From an uncultured Synechococcaceae cyanobacterium (lineage in GTDB: Bacteria > Cyanobacteriota > Cyanobacteriia > PCC-6307 > Cyanobiaceae): a stretch of DNA of 64,000 nt. Made by a program: the position numbers and the translations under genes. Position 1 is the stretch's first letter, and each line of letters opens with the position of its first letter. Shown one piece after another: positions 5,593-11,591 of the stretch. A model generated the notes under the pieces. That model made no database searches. It was not told the DNA's origin and saw only the letters and a list, made by a program, of their open reading frames with translations. The stretch is from contig CACGFX010000004.1 of assembly GCA_902572395.1 (NCBI GenBank), forward strand, positions 1 to 64,000. The letters are read 5' to 3'.

Positions 5593-6615
5593 TTAAAAAG
5601 AAATGCCCGATGCATTTAGAAAATCTTTATAAATATTTTGCCAGTGTAGAATCCTTTGTTCAAGTCTATTAGGTGGACCAAGTTTAAAATTTTCCAGATA
5701 AGACTTATGAACTGATTCAACAATAACTTTATCTTCCCCAATAAATTCTAATATACTTTTTTTCCAATTTTCTAAATCATTTTCACATAAAGAATCAGAG
5801 GCGAATTTAATTTCAATAATACACTGCTCAATATTTTTAGGAAGATAACTTATTAAAACAATCCCTTTACCAGGCCAGATTATTAGATGGGTCCATGGGA
5901 GTAGTCCAAAGGTATATAGATTTCCTGCACTACTAAGAGGGGTAACAAGTACATTACAAAATTCACTGAAGAAATACCTGTAGTTTTTAATTGGACCTTG
6001 TTCTTTATGTAGGGTATCTTTATGAGCTATTGCTACATGATAATCATCCAGTGTATTATCATGGGCAATTTTCCAATTGCAATTTAAGGTATCAGAAAAT
6101 TCAGAAAAAATGCTGTAATTCATATCCCATTCATCATTACATTTTCTTCCAACAAGCTCAATTTGATCTTCTATAGATATTGGTTTTTTACTAAAATTAA
6201 TCCAAATTAAAGGCCCATTTATTAAAGAGTTAACTTTTTCTAAAAAATAATCCTCTGTTTCTATTTTTATCTCAAAATCGTACTTTAATGGCAAGGTTTT
6301 AAGTTTGCCAAAACTATCAAAAGTCCAGCCATGGTAAGGACAAAAAATATTTTTAGAAGAATTTAATTTTGTTTTTGGCAAACACAATTTTGACCCACGA
6401 TGAGGGCATCTATTTTTAAAAACAGTTATTAAATTATTTTCTGAACGCGAGATTAATAATGATTGATTAAAGAATTTTTTTTCCAATATTTCGCCAGGTT
6501 TGATTTCTCCAATGAAAATCAATGGGTGCCAATAATTTTTTGAATAGTTATCTAATTCAAGTTCAAAAATTTTTTGCTCGTTATAAAGCCAAGTAGGCAA
6601 AAAGCTAGTTGACAT
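5593..6615 (-). CDS. Rieske [2Fe-2S] non-heme iron oxygenase
   Basis: CPHRG..CPYHGW Rieske motif; NTLDDYHVAIAH catalytic iron-site motif; 3 bp from the ABC ATPase gene. Confidence 0.9.
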   Translation of the reverse strand: MSTSFLPTWLYNEQKIFELELDNYSKNYWHPLIFIGEIKPGEILEKKFFNQSLLISRSENNLITVFKNRCPHRGSKLCLPKTKLNSSKNIFCPYHGWTFDSFGKLKTLPLKYDFEIKIETEDYFLEKVNSLINGPLIWINFSKKPISIEDQIELVGRKCNDEWDMNYSIFSEFSDTLNCNWKIAHDNTLDDYHVAIAHKDTLHKEQGPIKNYRYFFSEFCNVLVTPLSSAGNLYTFGLLPWTHLIIWPGKGIVLISYLPKNIEQCIIEIKFASDSLCENDLENWKKSILEFIGEDKVIVESVHKSYLENFKLGPPNRLEQRILHWQNIYKDFLNASGISF

Positions 6616-6618
6616 TAT

Positions 6619-7380
6619 TTATTTTTTTTGGAGGCCTCTTAAAAAATCAGATAATTCATATCTTAATTTTGCAAAATCTGAATCAAGTTTCAATTTATCT
6701 AAATCTCCTTTTTGCAGATCTACCCTTACTTCTTTTATGATTCTTCCAGGATTAGGTGCCAAAATACATATTTTCTGAGAGAGAGCTAATGCTTCTTCAA
6801 TATCATGGGTTATAAGTAAAACTGTCAATGAAGTTTTTTTCCATAATTCATAGAGAAATTTCTGCATAGATTCTCTTATCTGTAAGTCCAATGCTCCAAA
6901 AGGTTCATCTAAAAGTAGAATTTTAGGGTTAGTCGCTAGAGCTCTTGCAATTGCAATCCTTTGTTGCATTCCTCCAGATAATTCTTTTGGATACTTGTTC
7001 CCAGAATCCTGAAGACCTACTACTTCTAATAAATAAGATGTCCTATATTTTATTTCTTTCAACTTGTAAGAATTTAAATTCATTCCAAATGCGATATTCT
7101 CAGATGCAGTGAGCCAAGGGAAAAGACTATATTTCTGAAAAACCATCCCTCTATCCAATCCCGGTCCACTAACTATTTTCCCATCTACTTTTACGTTCCC
7201 TTTAGATGGACTCTCAAGCCCAGCAATAATCCTCAATATAGTACTTTTACCTGATCCAGAGCTCCCAACAAGAGTTTTAAACTCCCCAGAACTTATTGAA
7301 AAGCTTATTCCCTCAATTGCCTTTTTTCTATTTGAACCTTCCCCAAAATATTTTGAAATATTATTAACATCTAATTTCAT
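6619..7380 (-). CDS. ABC transporter ATP-binding protein, nitrate/sulfonate/taurine (NitT/TauT) type
   Basis: Walker A GSSGSGKST, signature LSGGMQQR, Walker B LLLDEPFGALD. Confidence 0.93.
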   Translation of the reverse strand: MKLDVNNISKYFGEGSNRKKAIEGISFSISSGEFKTLVGSSGSGKSTILRIIAGLESPSKGNVKVDGKIVSGPGLDRGMVFQKYSLFPWLTASENIAFGMNLNSYKLKEIKYRTSYLLEVVGLQDSGNKYPKELSGGMQQRIAIARALATNPKILLLDEPFGALDLQIRESMQKFLYELWKKTSLTVLLITHDIEEALALSQKICILAPNPGRIIKEVRVDLQKGDLDKLKLDSDFAKLRYELSDFLRGLQKK

Positions 7381-8199
7381 TTAAACAGCCCATTTACATG
7401 TACGTCTAAGTAGCAATCTAAAACTCATATCCAAAGCAAATCCTATTAATCCAAGAACTATTAATTCTGCAAATATTTGATCTGTACGAAAAAATCTTTG
7501 AGCCAATTGAATCCTTTTACCTAAACCAACTTCTGCTGCAATTAACTCTGCAACTATTACTAAATTCCATGAAGTTGCAATATTAATTCTTAAAGTATCA
7601 ATAATACTTGGCAATGAATATCTGGCTATTACTCTTATCAATAAATCTTTTGTATTACCTCCTAAAGTAAGTGTTGTTTCAATGAGTTCTTTGGGTACAA
7701 ATTTTACTGAATCCATAACCATCAAAACATTAAAGTAAACAGTACCAATGAAAATTAAAGCGATTTTTGGAGCCTCTTCAATTCCTAAATAAATAATAAG
7801 CAAAGGAGAAAAAGCAGCGGCAGGCATATACCTAAGCATTGCAATTAATGGTTCACATAACGCACAAAAAGAAGGGAATGAACCCATTAAAATTCCTAAA
7901 GGAATTGAAAAAATTGTTGCAATTATAAAACCAGCAAATACCCTACCAGTACTTGCAAAAATATCTTCAAATAATATTCCACTTTCAGCCATATCCAAAA
8001 GAGAATAAAAGACCGCTAACGGTGATGGTAAAAACATTTCACTTACAAGTTTTAATTGACAAACTAATGTCCAAATTAAAAGGGGAAGCAAAAGTGAGGT
8101 TATTTGAAGAAATATTTTATTTAATTTTTTCGGTTCACTACCAAATGAAAAGAGGGATAAAAAATATTTATCCCTCTTGATTAATTTCGAACTAACCAT
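7381..8199 (-). CDS. ABC transporter permease, NitT/TauT type
   Basis: Multi-TM with BPD_transp EAA-like region (ELIETTLTLGGNTKDLLIRVIARYSLPSI). Confidence 0.9.
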   Translation of the reverse strand: MVSSKLIKRDKYFLSLFSFGSEPKKLNKIFLQITSLLLPLLIWTLVCQLKLVSEMFLPSPLAVFYSLLDMAESGILFEDIFASTGRVFAGFIIATIFSIPLGILMGSFPSFCALCEPLIAMLRYMPAAAFSPLLIIYLGIEEAPKIALIFIGTVYFNVLMVMDSVKFVPKELIETTLTLGGNTKDLLIRVIARYSLPSIIDTLRINIATSWNLVIVAELIAAEVGLGKRIQLAQRFFRTDQIFAELIVLGLIGFALDMSFRLLLRRTCKWAV

Positions 8200-8214: not shown

Positions 8215-9213
8215 TTAACTGATGTTTTTAACGAACGAAGAGTCAAATAATTTGCTCATATCTGGTTTTTCAGGAATAAATCCTACCTTGACCATAAAGT
8301 CTGCCATCTGTTTCGCTGCATAAGGCATATGTTTCATACCGAACCCATCACTAAAAGCTTCTAAATTTTCTTCCAAAGAAAAGAACCTAGTTCCACCTTT
8401 ATATTGTTTGTATTCGCGTGTAGGGATCCCAGCTCGCTTTGCCATGATCTTTTCAGATTTTCTTGGATTTTTTTCCATGAATTCTCTTACATCCCACCAT
8501 GTTTTAACAATTTTTTGAACATCATCTGGTCTTTCAGAAATCAAATCTCCGCTAACAGCTAATAAATCTGGGATTGCACCGGGATAATCTTTTGAACTAG
8601 CAATAACTCTTGCTCCAGGCCTCTTCATTGCAGTTCCTGTAAATGGAGGGAATGCACCAACTGCATCAACTTTTCCTGCTGCGAATGCAGTTGCAGCCTG
8701 ATCAGTTGGGAGACCTTTAATAATGACATCATCTCGAGTTAATCCAACATCGTTCAGAGCTAAAACAAGTAAAAAATCATCCACAACTCCTTCTTCTACT
8801 GCTACTGTTTTACCTTTTAAATCAGCAACACTTTTAATTGATTTATCTGCAATTATTTGGTCATTCCCTGCAGAATTATCATTAACTAAAACAACTACTT
8901 CCCCTCCATTCTCTCCTGGCAAGAACGAAATAGTATCATTAAGAGTCTGCGAATTTCCATCAATTTTACCAGCAGCAAAAGTCTCCATTGATTGAACATA
9001 TCCATCAAACCATTTCATCTGAACATTAACTCCATTTTTTTCAAACATTTTTTGATCAACAGCTATCGCCCAGGGCCACCATCCTGCCCAGTTACTGTAT
9101 CCCAAAGTGATTGGTTCACCTTTTGGAGCTGCAGGACTTGATAGTGTACTTAATGAAATCGCTAATATTAGAGCCAACAAGGAGGCAACAAAAACTCTCA
9201 ATTTTTTAAACAT
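8215..9213 (-). CDS. ABC transporter substrate-binding protein, NitT/TauT family (candidate guanidine/guanidino-compound binder)
   Basis: Signal peptide; LGYSNWAGWWPWAIA..; operon context. Confidence 0.88.
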   Translation of the reverse strand: MFKKLRVFVASLLALILAISLSTLSSPAAPKGEPITLGYSNWAGWWPWAIAVDQKMFEKNGVNVQMKWFDGYVQSMETFAAGKIDGNSQTLNDTISFLPGENGGEVVVLVNDNSAGNDQIIADKSIKSVADLKGKTVAVEEGVVDDFLLVLALNDVGLTRDDVIIKGLPTDQAATAFAAGKVDAVGAFPPFTGTAMKRPGARVIASSKDYPGAIPDLLAVSGDLISERPDDVQKIVKTWWDVREFMEKNPRKSEKIMAKRAGIPTREYKQYKGGTRFFSLEENLEAFSDGFGMKHMPYAAKQMADFMVKVGFIPEKPDMSKLFDSSFVKNIS

Positions 9214-9313
9214 TTTTGAAAAAAAATATTACGTACTATCAATACTTAAGAAAAAGCAAATCTAAAGTTGTAATGACTGATACTTTTAAGAGATTACTCT
9301 TACTTAATCAATA

Positions 9314-9997
9314 TTAATTATTTTTAAATTTCAGAATCTTTTTACTAATCCAATCTTGCCATAAATCGAATCCAGACTTGGTTACCGAAGAAATTTCTAT
9401 CACATCTGCCTTAGGGTTAGTTGAAGTTATGTTCGATTTTAATTCGTTAATATCAAAATTCAAATGGGGTAACAAATCAACTTTAGTTATCAAAATTAAA
9501 TCTGCTTCTCTAAACATTATTGGATATTTTAAAGGTTTATCCTCACCTTCGGTAATACTTAAAAGTGCAACTTTAAAATGTTCTCCAATCTCAAATTCTG
9601 CAGGACAAACTAAATTTCCAACATTTTCCACTAACAAAATATCTAGTAAATCAGGATTTATTTTTTTTTCTAGTAATTTCAAACCTCCACTAACCATATT
9701 TGCATCGAGATGGCATGCTCTTCCAGTTGTAATTGGTACTACTGGAATATTTAATTTTTCTAATCTTGCGGCATCAAGATTAGTGGTCATATCACCCTCT
9801 AAAACAGCACTGTGAAATTTTTTTGAAAGATCTTCTAGAGTTATTTCAAGTAATCTCGTTTTTCCTGCACCAGGACTACTCATTATGTTCAAGCAAAGCA
9901 AATTATAATTATTAAACTTAACTTTATTTTTCTCAGCTTGATGACTATTTTGATGAAGAATATTTAATTCAATTTTGTCTGAAATTGGTAAATGCAT
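9314..9997 (-). CDS. hypB: HypB-type Ni metallochaperone GTPase
   Basis: MSSPGAGKT P-loop; ENVGNLVCPAEFEIGE motif; TKVDLLP. Confidence 0.92.
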   Translation of the reverse strand: MHLPISDKIELNILHQNSHQAEKNKVKFNNYNLLCLNIMSSPGAGKTRLLEITLEDLSKKFHSAVLEGDMTTNLDAARLEKLNIPVVPITTGRACHLDANMVSGGLKLLEKKINPDLLDILLVENVGNLVCPAEFEIGEHFKVALLSITEGEDKPLKYPIMFREADLILITKVDLLPHLNFDINELKSNITSTNPKADVIEISSVTKSGFDLWQDWISKKILKFKNN

Positions 9998-10037: not shown

Positions 10038-10394
10038 CTACTTTTCTTTAAAATCAATAGATGCGATTTTTAATTCCCTCCCACTAATAATTTCCTCTAA
10101 ATTAAAATTACAACATGGAGATTTATATCCATTCTCTTTCTTTGGAAAATATAATCTATTGCATTTAGAGCATTTCCCTTCAAAAGGTATTGTCTCAATT
10201 GTAATCTCAGAGGAATCTAACCAAGAACCCAATACTGCAGCATTAAAAGTATTAATTAATGATATTGGTTCTACGCAAGTAAATTCGCCAATCTTAAGAT
10301 TAATCTTTTCAACAACTATCTTTTTTTTATTTTTTTTCTCTGCCCACTCTTCCATGGAAAGAATAAGGCATTTTGTCATATCTACTTCATGCAC
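10038..10394 (-). CDS. hypA: HypA-type Ni metallochaperone
   Basis: MHEVDMTKC N-terminus; EGKCSKC..SPCCN..EIISGRELKIASI. Confidence 0.9.
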   Translation of the reverse strand: MHEVDMTKCLILSMEEWAEKKNKKKIVVEKINLKIGEFTCVEPISLINTFNAAVLGSWLDSSEITIETIPFEGKCSKCNRLYFPKKENGYKSPCCNFNLEEIISGRELKIASIDFKEK

Positions 10395-10400
10395 GAAAAT

Positions 10401-11591
10401 CTATCTCCATTTCTGATCAACTGACATATTGCATTTATCTGAAATCCATTCTGGTTTAGATTTTCTTGGGAGCTGACCACTGACTACAAGATGTGCAATT
10501 GAATCACAAATAACTCTTGTAGCTAATAAGGCTGTCATATCGCTTACATCATATGGAGGCGAAACCTCAACAAGCTCAATGCCACATACATTTACTTTTC
10601 TAATAATGTACTCCAAAAGTTTTAATGCCTCTCGGGGTAATAAACCCCCAGGTTCAGGCCAACCAGTTCCAGGGACAAATCCAGCATCAATACAATCAAT
10701 ATCAAAAGAAATGTATACACAGTCAGTTCCATGAGTAGCTTTTTCAATCGCAAAATCAGCGGCCTCCTTCAACCCCATTTCACAAATATCAGTAACTGTT
10801 AAAACATTTGTACTCCGTTCCCTGCAAATTTTTACTCCTTCTCTTGGTACTTGCCAACCTCCAATTCCTAATTGAACAAGATTCTTTGCAGGTGCATTTT
10901 TCATATTAGTGGCATGAAACCATGGACAGGTATGCATTCTTTCATCTAGATCTGTTTCTTGAGTATCTACATGTCTATCAAAATGAATGATTCCTACTTT
11001 TTTATTTCCTAAGTGGCGACAAACTCCTCTAACTGTAGGGAAACCTATTGAATGATCTCCACCTAAAATAATTGGGAATGCACCACTAGCAAAAATATGA
11101 GCCACCCCTTTCGAGATTTGATCAAAGCTTTTTTCATTATTTGCTGGAATTGTAAAAATATCTCCTACATCACATATTGAAATCTGCTCTCTCAAATCCA
11201 CTCCCATTTCGTAATTGTACGGAGTATAAAGAGCAGAAATTTTTCTTATACCTTGAGGTCCGAATCTTGTCCCTGGTCTATAAGTAGTTCCAGAATCATG
11301 AGGAACACCAACGATCGCAACATCATAATTTCCCACTTCATTTACATTTTCAACATAAGGAGCTTTCATGAAAGTATTGATACCTGCAAAATGGGGTAAT
11401 TCTCCTCTTGAAAATGTAGATATATTTCTATCGACAATACTTTTTGCTCCTTCTAATCCATATTCCTTTGCTCGGGCAACCTCATTTTCCCATCCTTTAA
11501 GAGGTAATTTTGATTCTTTTTCTAAAGCATCCATTCCTTCGCTGGGATGCTTTCTTTTAAAATCTTGATCTTGAGATGATTCAGAAGTCAC
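10401..11591 (-). CDS. gdmH: arginase/agmatinase-family ureohydrolase, likely Ni-dependent guanidine hydrolase (GdmH/Sll1077 type)
   Basis: GGDHSIG, HFDRHVD, SFDIDCIDAGFVPGTGWPEPGG; adjacent hypA/hypB; GTG start. Confidence 0.8.
   Translation of the reverse strand: MTSESSQDQDFKRKHPSEGMDALEKESKLPLKGWENEVARAKEYGLEGAKSIVDRNISTFSRGELPHFAGINTFMKAPYVENVNEVGNYDVAIVGVPHDSGTTYRPGTRFGPQGIRKISALYTPYNYEMGVDLREQISICDVGDIFTIPANNEKSFDQISKGVAHIFASGAFPIILGGDHSIGFPTVRGVCRHLGNKKVGIIHFDRHVDTQETDLDERMHTCPWFHATNMKNAPAKNLVQLGIGGWQVPREGVKICRERSTNVLTVTDICEMGLKEAADFAIEKATHGTDCVYISFDIDCIDAGFVPGTGWPEPGGLLPREALKLLEYIIRKVNVCGIELVEVSPPYDVSDMTALLATRVICDSIAHLVVSGQLPRKSKPEWISDKCNMSVDQKWR

Follow-up and report, generated by a model that had tools for sequence, protein, structure and literature searches.

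The window analysed here is a stretch of 64,000 nucleotides from an uncultured Synechococcaceae cyanobacterium whose genome assembly is 69% complete. It contains a guanidinase operon on the minus strand, with the genes in the order gdmH-hypA-hypB-SBP-permease-ATPase-Rieske. The first gene (10401..11591) encodes an arginase-family guanidine hydrolase of the GdmH/SpeB2 (Sll1077) type, assigned by profile matches and by its identity to other GdmH proteins; it shares 76-97% identity with the GdmH proteins of other cyanobacteria, and most of these are riboswitch-linked. The speB2 gene of the published cluster is orthologous to sll1077, according to the cluster description in PMC10119275. Profile matches also identify a hypA-like Ni metallochaperone (10038..10394), a hypB-like Ni-insertion GTPase (9314..9997), an ABC transporter substrate-binding protein (SBP) of the SsuA/NMT1 family (8215..9213), a permease (7381..8199), and an ATPase of the nitrate/taurine/sulfonate type (6619..7380), all on the minus strand. 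With gdmH, hypA, hypB, and an SsuA-type ABC importer present, the operon is of the GdmH guanidinase type.

The last gene of the operon encodes a Rieske non-heme-iron oxygenase of 340 amino acids with an ATG start (5593..6615, minus strand). The ATPase ORF ends at 6619, leaving a gap of 3 bp before the Rieske start codon, and the ORF coordinates agree with the spacing given in the first-pass annotation. That annotation also stated that no dedicated reductase is encoded; this holds for the operon, where neither a reductase nor a ferredoxin gene was found among the ORFs and profile matches.

The product of the gene is an intact Rieske non-heme-iron oxygenase alpha subunit, with the ligands of the Rieske [2Fe-2S] cluster, the 2-His-1-carboxylate site for mononuclear iron, and the family fold all present. 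Pfam domains PF00355 (Rieske, 8e-16) and PF00848 (catalytic domain, Ring_hydroxyl_A, 3e-8) both match above their cut-offs. The cluster ligands are C70 and H72 in the motif CPHRG and C92 and H95 in CPYHGW. The iron-site motif DDYHVAIAH spans residues 190-198 and contains the ligands H193 and H198, and the third iron ligand is D295 by alignment to the carnitine monooxygenase CntA. C70, H72, C92, H193, H198, and D295 are invariant in all 48 aligned orthologs, while H95 is found in 47, the remaining one having a masked residue there. Both motifs had been read as intact from the DNA letters, and the Pfam matches and the retention of the ligands bear this out. The bridging-carboxylate position, which precedes the first His ligand by three residues, is D190 in 41 of the 48 and Cys in the seven orthologs outside Cyanobiaceae; the adjoining D191 is Asp in every one. 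The AF2 model has a mean pLDDT of 90.6, and its top Foldseek match is 6zgp (E 2.9e-20, TMq 0.74; CntA entries 0.72-0.81). In Prochlorococcus the dN/dS of the Rieske gene is about 0.17, which indicates that the reading frame is a real, constrained gene, and four other operon genes have values of 0.04-0.07. The gene is thus under purifying selection, yet it evolves faster than its operon neighbours.

In its treatment of the cluster, PMC10119275 suggests Fe as a cofactor in the guanidinase system and reports that the cluster is absent from low-Fe waters. The Rieske protein could then be an accessory Fe-S protein of that system, as the cofactor remark implies, and both its operon position and the low-Fe pattern would fit. 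This is very improbable, since an electron-transfer-only protein would not need a mononuclear-iron site, and H193, H198, and D295 are retained in all of the orthologs. The confident AF2 model also matches full Rieske oxygenases.

In 30 of 40 tested genomes (the 40 include two without gdmH), a guanidine-I riboswitch lies immediately upstream of gdmH, and it also precedes gdmH in three genomes outside the family. Searches revealed no copy in the window, in a related Prochlorococcus genome (G282), or in two genomes with split operons, their transporter units included. In the window the 100-bp gap between hypB and the SBP gene holds a candidate NtcA box, GTATCAGTCATTAC (GTAN8TAC; 9270..9283, no strand assigned), and a perfect GTAN8TAC box precedes the SBP gene wherever the other Prochlorococcus loci include this gap. 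At the customary spacing from the box, a clear -10 element was not found. Because the entire gap is conserved in Prochlorococcus, the box is a candidate only, and NtcA control of the transporter-Rieske part of the operon is only a suggestion. A Glutamine-II riboswitch is present at 270-332 of the window (minus strand, 58 bits, above the Rfam gathering score), and a member of the same riboswitch family also occurs close to the separated transporter-Rieske units of L062 and L063.

Distribution of the Rieske gene with gdmH

The coupling of the Rieske gene to guanidine use is strongly supported by co-occurrence with gdmH, by the guanidine riboswitch, and by best matches to amine-oxidising enzymes. 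The first-pass annotation proposed co-occurrence across cyanobacteria as a check, with its absence outside this genome counting against the coupling, and the two genes were indeed found together widely. Among 301 genomes of the family, the Rieske gene is present in 71, GdmH in 99, and both in 69. Sixty-four of the 69 have the two genes on the same strand and contig, with Rieske 2.3-5.5 kb downstream of gdmH; in three they are on different contigs, and in two they are far apart on one contig. Rieske occurs without GdmH in two family genomes, where the unit is on contigs of 4.0 and 7.6 kb; the completeness of these assemblies is 81% and 89%. In a phylum sample of 386 genomes, Rieske is found in 19 and GdmH in 58, and all 19 Rieske genomes have GdmH. 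An extra sample of 196 genomes from one order yielded seven Rieske genomes, all with GdmH, five of which were already within the phylum sample. The hypergeometric probabilities (3e-41 for the family and 1e-17 for the phylum sample) overstate the evidence because related genomes are treated as independent; distant genera nonetheless agree.

Rieske genes are common in cyanobacteria, and weak matches occur in most genomes of the family, as would be expected if this gene merely travelled with its neighbours and had an unrelated role, for example in oxidising chlorophyll or pheophorbide. Such a role is extremely improbable in view of the co-occurrence with gdmH across the phylum, the constant place after the ATPase, and a score gap within the same genomes: family orthologs were taken at a threshold of at least 140 bits, while the other Rieske proteins of those genomes score at most 59.

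The Rieske gene has a fixed place after the transporter ATPase, and this place is retained when the operon splits. A search by DNA patterns, which is biased to close orthologs, gave 80 named loci (genome contigs), and the ATPase gene is directly upstream of Rieske in all of them; gdmH is present in each of the 68 that are not truncated at a contig end. Thirty-three of the 80 are of the Prochlorococcus type, with Rieske proteins 89-97% identical to that of the window; such near-identical named relatives indicate that the window, too, comes from a Prochlorococcus-type cyanobacterium. Identity of the window protein to the Rieske proteins of Synechococcus and Cyanobium is only 34-40%. The Rieske and GdmH trees are concordant in their broad groups, and the Prochlorococcus Rieske forms a long branch inside the marine clade. 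No relatives of the Rieske protein were found in viral contigs. Plasmid relatives are only about 30% identical, and no guanidine genes were found near them in three annotated contexts (four were opened, one of them unannotated). New here are the co-occurrence counts in family and phylum, the presence of the gene in Prochlorococcus, as well as in a few distant cyanobacteria that have it at this operon position, its fixed place beside the importer, its faster evolution under purifying selection, and its nearest solved relative, CntA, whose group V hallmarks it lacks.

Loci in which the operon is divided suggest that the Rieske gene is tied to the importer more than to the hydrolase. Two Synechococcus-type genomes have the SBP-permease-ATPase-Rieske block 145-165 kb away from gdmH-hypAB. 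Seven Rieske genomes lie outside the family, and five of these have the gene at the end of the gdmH operon. In another (G462) it is apart from gdmH, with no transporter alongside. The last (G361) has a gdmH operon that includes its transporter and lacks Rieske, and a second unit contains a divergent SBP, a permease, an isochorismatase-family hydrolase, an ATPase, and Rieske. The hydrolase (L111:9282-9875, minus strand, between the permease and the ATPase) has biuret amidohydrolase as its nearest NCBIfam model, far below the cut-off. The location of this Rieske gene beside the second, divergent transporter rather than the gdmH-linked one suggests a substrate other than guanidine itself.

These arrangements bear on the possibility that the enzyme oxidises another small cationic nitrogen compound taken up by the same importer, such as an alkylated amine, an amidine, or a quaternary ammonium compound. 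The product would then not be guanidine, and the link to gdmH would reflect a shared nitrogen-scavenging module. Both the movement of Rieske with the transporter instead of gdmH in split operons and the G361 unit with its divergent SBP and hydrolase favor this possibility, which is nevertheless somewhat unlikely. Rieske genomes have gdmH even when the two genes are non-adjacent, and a shared importer alone would not demand that.

Relation to amine-oxidising Rieske enzymes

By sequence, profile, and fold, the nearest solved protein is the carnitine monooxygenase CntA, a group V Rieske enzyme (PDB 6y9c, 6zgp) with which metal ligands are held in common. The stachydrine demethylase Stc2 (PDB 4qup, 3vca), an N-demethylating Rieske enzyme, is among the next profile and fold matches. 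The structure-prediction check suggested by the first-pass annotation gave the same result, with the AF2 model matching full Rieske oxygenases and CntA first. That annotation named a placement among chlorophyll or pheophorbide oxygenases as evidence against its proposal. No PaO/CAO-type models are among the Pfam or NCBIfam matches of the protein, and its best sequence and fold matches are amine-oxidising enzymes, so that by best match only it is not a chlorophyll/pheophorbide oxygenase.

The relationship to group V is distant, and the iron-site hallmarks of that group are missing. Identity is about 22% to CntA and about 18% to Stc2, and the best NCBIfam model, GbcA, scores 83.7 bits, far below its cut-off of 670. 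Y203, E205, C206, and C209 of CntA align to T188, D190, D191, and V194. A pi-cation aromatic residue at the Y203 position is the hallmark of group Va (PMC7948474); it is absent here, with T188 in 48 of 48 orthologs. A Cys-X-X-Cys pair adjoining the iron site is a hallmark of some group V members (PMC10952381) and occurs in CntA and Stc2, but it is also absent, with D191 and V194 in all 48. The bridging Glu of CntA is replaced by Asp, or by Cys in the seven orthologs mentioned above, and, in contrast to CntA, no reductase gene adjoins the Rieske gene here. By these tests the protein is a relative of the amine-oxidising Rieske enzymes and a non-member of group V. The best matches to quaternary-amine enzymes are what would be expected if another cationic nitrogen compound were the substrate, whereas the missing choline/carnitine hallmarks argue against it.

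D191 was considered as a guanidinium-binding residue. The CntA residue aligned with it, C206, is about 4.4 A from the substrate ammonium (PMC10952381). This assignment was dropped, as the neighbouring position 190 is Cys in seven orthologs; for the same reason D191 may serve electron transfer instead.

Proposed function and known systems

The Rieske protein very probably has some oxygenase role in this nitrogen pathway. The favoured reading of the specific reaction is oxidative N-dealkylation of an imported guanidino compound, with its nitrogen released via GdmH and urease, and the chance that this is correct is judged to be a little short of even. The ABC importer of the operon would take up a small N-substituted guanidine, or a compound closely related to one, alongside or in place of guanidine. 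The Rieske enzyme would hydroxylate the carbon bound to a guanidino nitrogen, and breakdown of the hemiaminal would yield guanidine and an aldehyde. Ni-dependent GdmH would convert guanidine to urea and ammonia, and urease would free the remaining nitrogen. The electron donor is probably photosynthetic ferredoxin. The substrate class, the N-dealkylation, and the electron donor are all inferred, and no data here single out methylguanidine, the simplest candidate. More tentatively, the protein may represent a novel Rieske family of abundant marine picocyanobacteria that differs from group V in its iron-site hallmarks and uses light-driven electrons from ferredoxin to release guanidine from N-substituted guanidines, which would make these compounds available as a source of nitrogen.

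Gene content bears on N-dealkylation in different ways. All eight genomes tested contain urease, which completes the pathway downstream of guanidine. Thirty of the 99 family genomes with gdmH lack Rieske, which counts against the N-dealkylation proposal. A search of six Cyanobiaceae genomes for glutathione-dependent formaldehyde dehydrogenase (TIGR02818) found none, and an N-demethylase would therefore need another formaldehyde sink. Urea release by the guanidinase of Nitrospira is flagged as significant for guanidine and agmatine and not for methylguanidine in the substrate results of PMC11410670, which implies that methylguanidine would need a prior step.

A type III glutamine-synthetase-like (GS-III) gene is found inside the guanidine operon at L071:7526-8878 and in many freshwater Cyanobium/Synechococcus loci. 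The best solved match of the freshwater gene is glutamate-methylamine ligase 9qur, and many of the GS-III loci have a second copy, 42-47% identical, downstream of Rieske. This gene was dropped as proof of methylamine release; it is missing from the window operon and is found with and without Rieske. As it stands, the gene is no more than a lead to methylated nitrogen, and its best match would also suit the oxidation of a cationic compound other than a guanidine.

Guanidine use by cyanobacteria is known, and the tie to gdmH and the guanidine riboswitch could mean that the substrate is guanidine itself or a pathway by-product, with N-hydroxylation or the clearing of an inhibitory analogue as examples. 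This is distinctly unlikely. Many genomes run gdmH without Rieske, and no Rieske enzyme is known to us to act on free guanidine. Guanidine is also degraded by Synechocystis PCC 6803 (PMC8390497, PMC12186494), and PMC10119275 describes the homologous cluster of this strain as lacking Rieske.

To our knowledge, neither where guanidine comes from nor what becomes of substituted guanidines in the sea has been described. If N-dealkylation is correct, a Rieske enzyme tied to a guanidine importer would mark substituted guanidines as a genuine source of nitrogen. The guanidinase pathway would then also begin with an oxidation that differs from the 2-oxoglutarate route already known, and this could explain why the cluster is reported to be missing from low-iron waters. 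Given the co-occurrence, the link between Rieske and guanidine is directly testable in cultured Synechococcus or Cyanobium.

The operon and the position of its Rieske gene are identical to those of the clusters named Pro-eCAG_004 and Syn-eCAG_001, as these are presented in PMC10119275. There Dore et al. (2023) report that most Synechococcus/Cyanobium with the guanidinase cluster have a Rieske gene (CK_00002251) downstream of it; the passages on the cluster mention it for these genera only and give no enzymatic role. The first-pass annotation knew of no described role for the gene. This stands for its function, as no paper was found in the literature that connects Rieske enzymes with guanidine chemistry or assigns the gene a function, but its presence beside gdmH was already published (PMC10119275). 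Relative to that cluster account, the present analysis adds Prochlorococcus, some distant cyanobacteria with the gene at the same operon position, and the full oxygenase iron site. A precedent for the proposed logic is the MgdH/MgdL system of Vreelandella boliviensis, in which a guanidine-riboswitch operon that encodes an ABC importer has likewise gained an oxygenase, and MgdH converts methylguanidine to guanidine (PMC12508155). No MgdL-like lyase was identified among the assigned genes of the operon studied here. MgdH is a 2-oxoglutarate/Fe(II) dioxygenase that feeds a guanidine carboxylase (PMC12508155), whereas here a Rieske oxygenase stands beside a Ni guanidinase.
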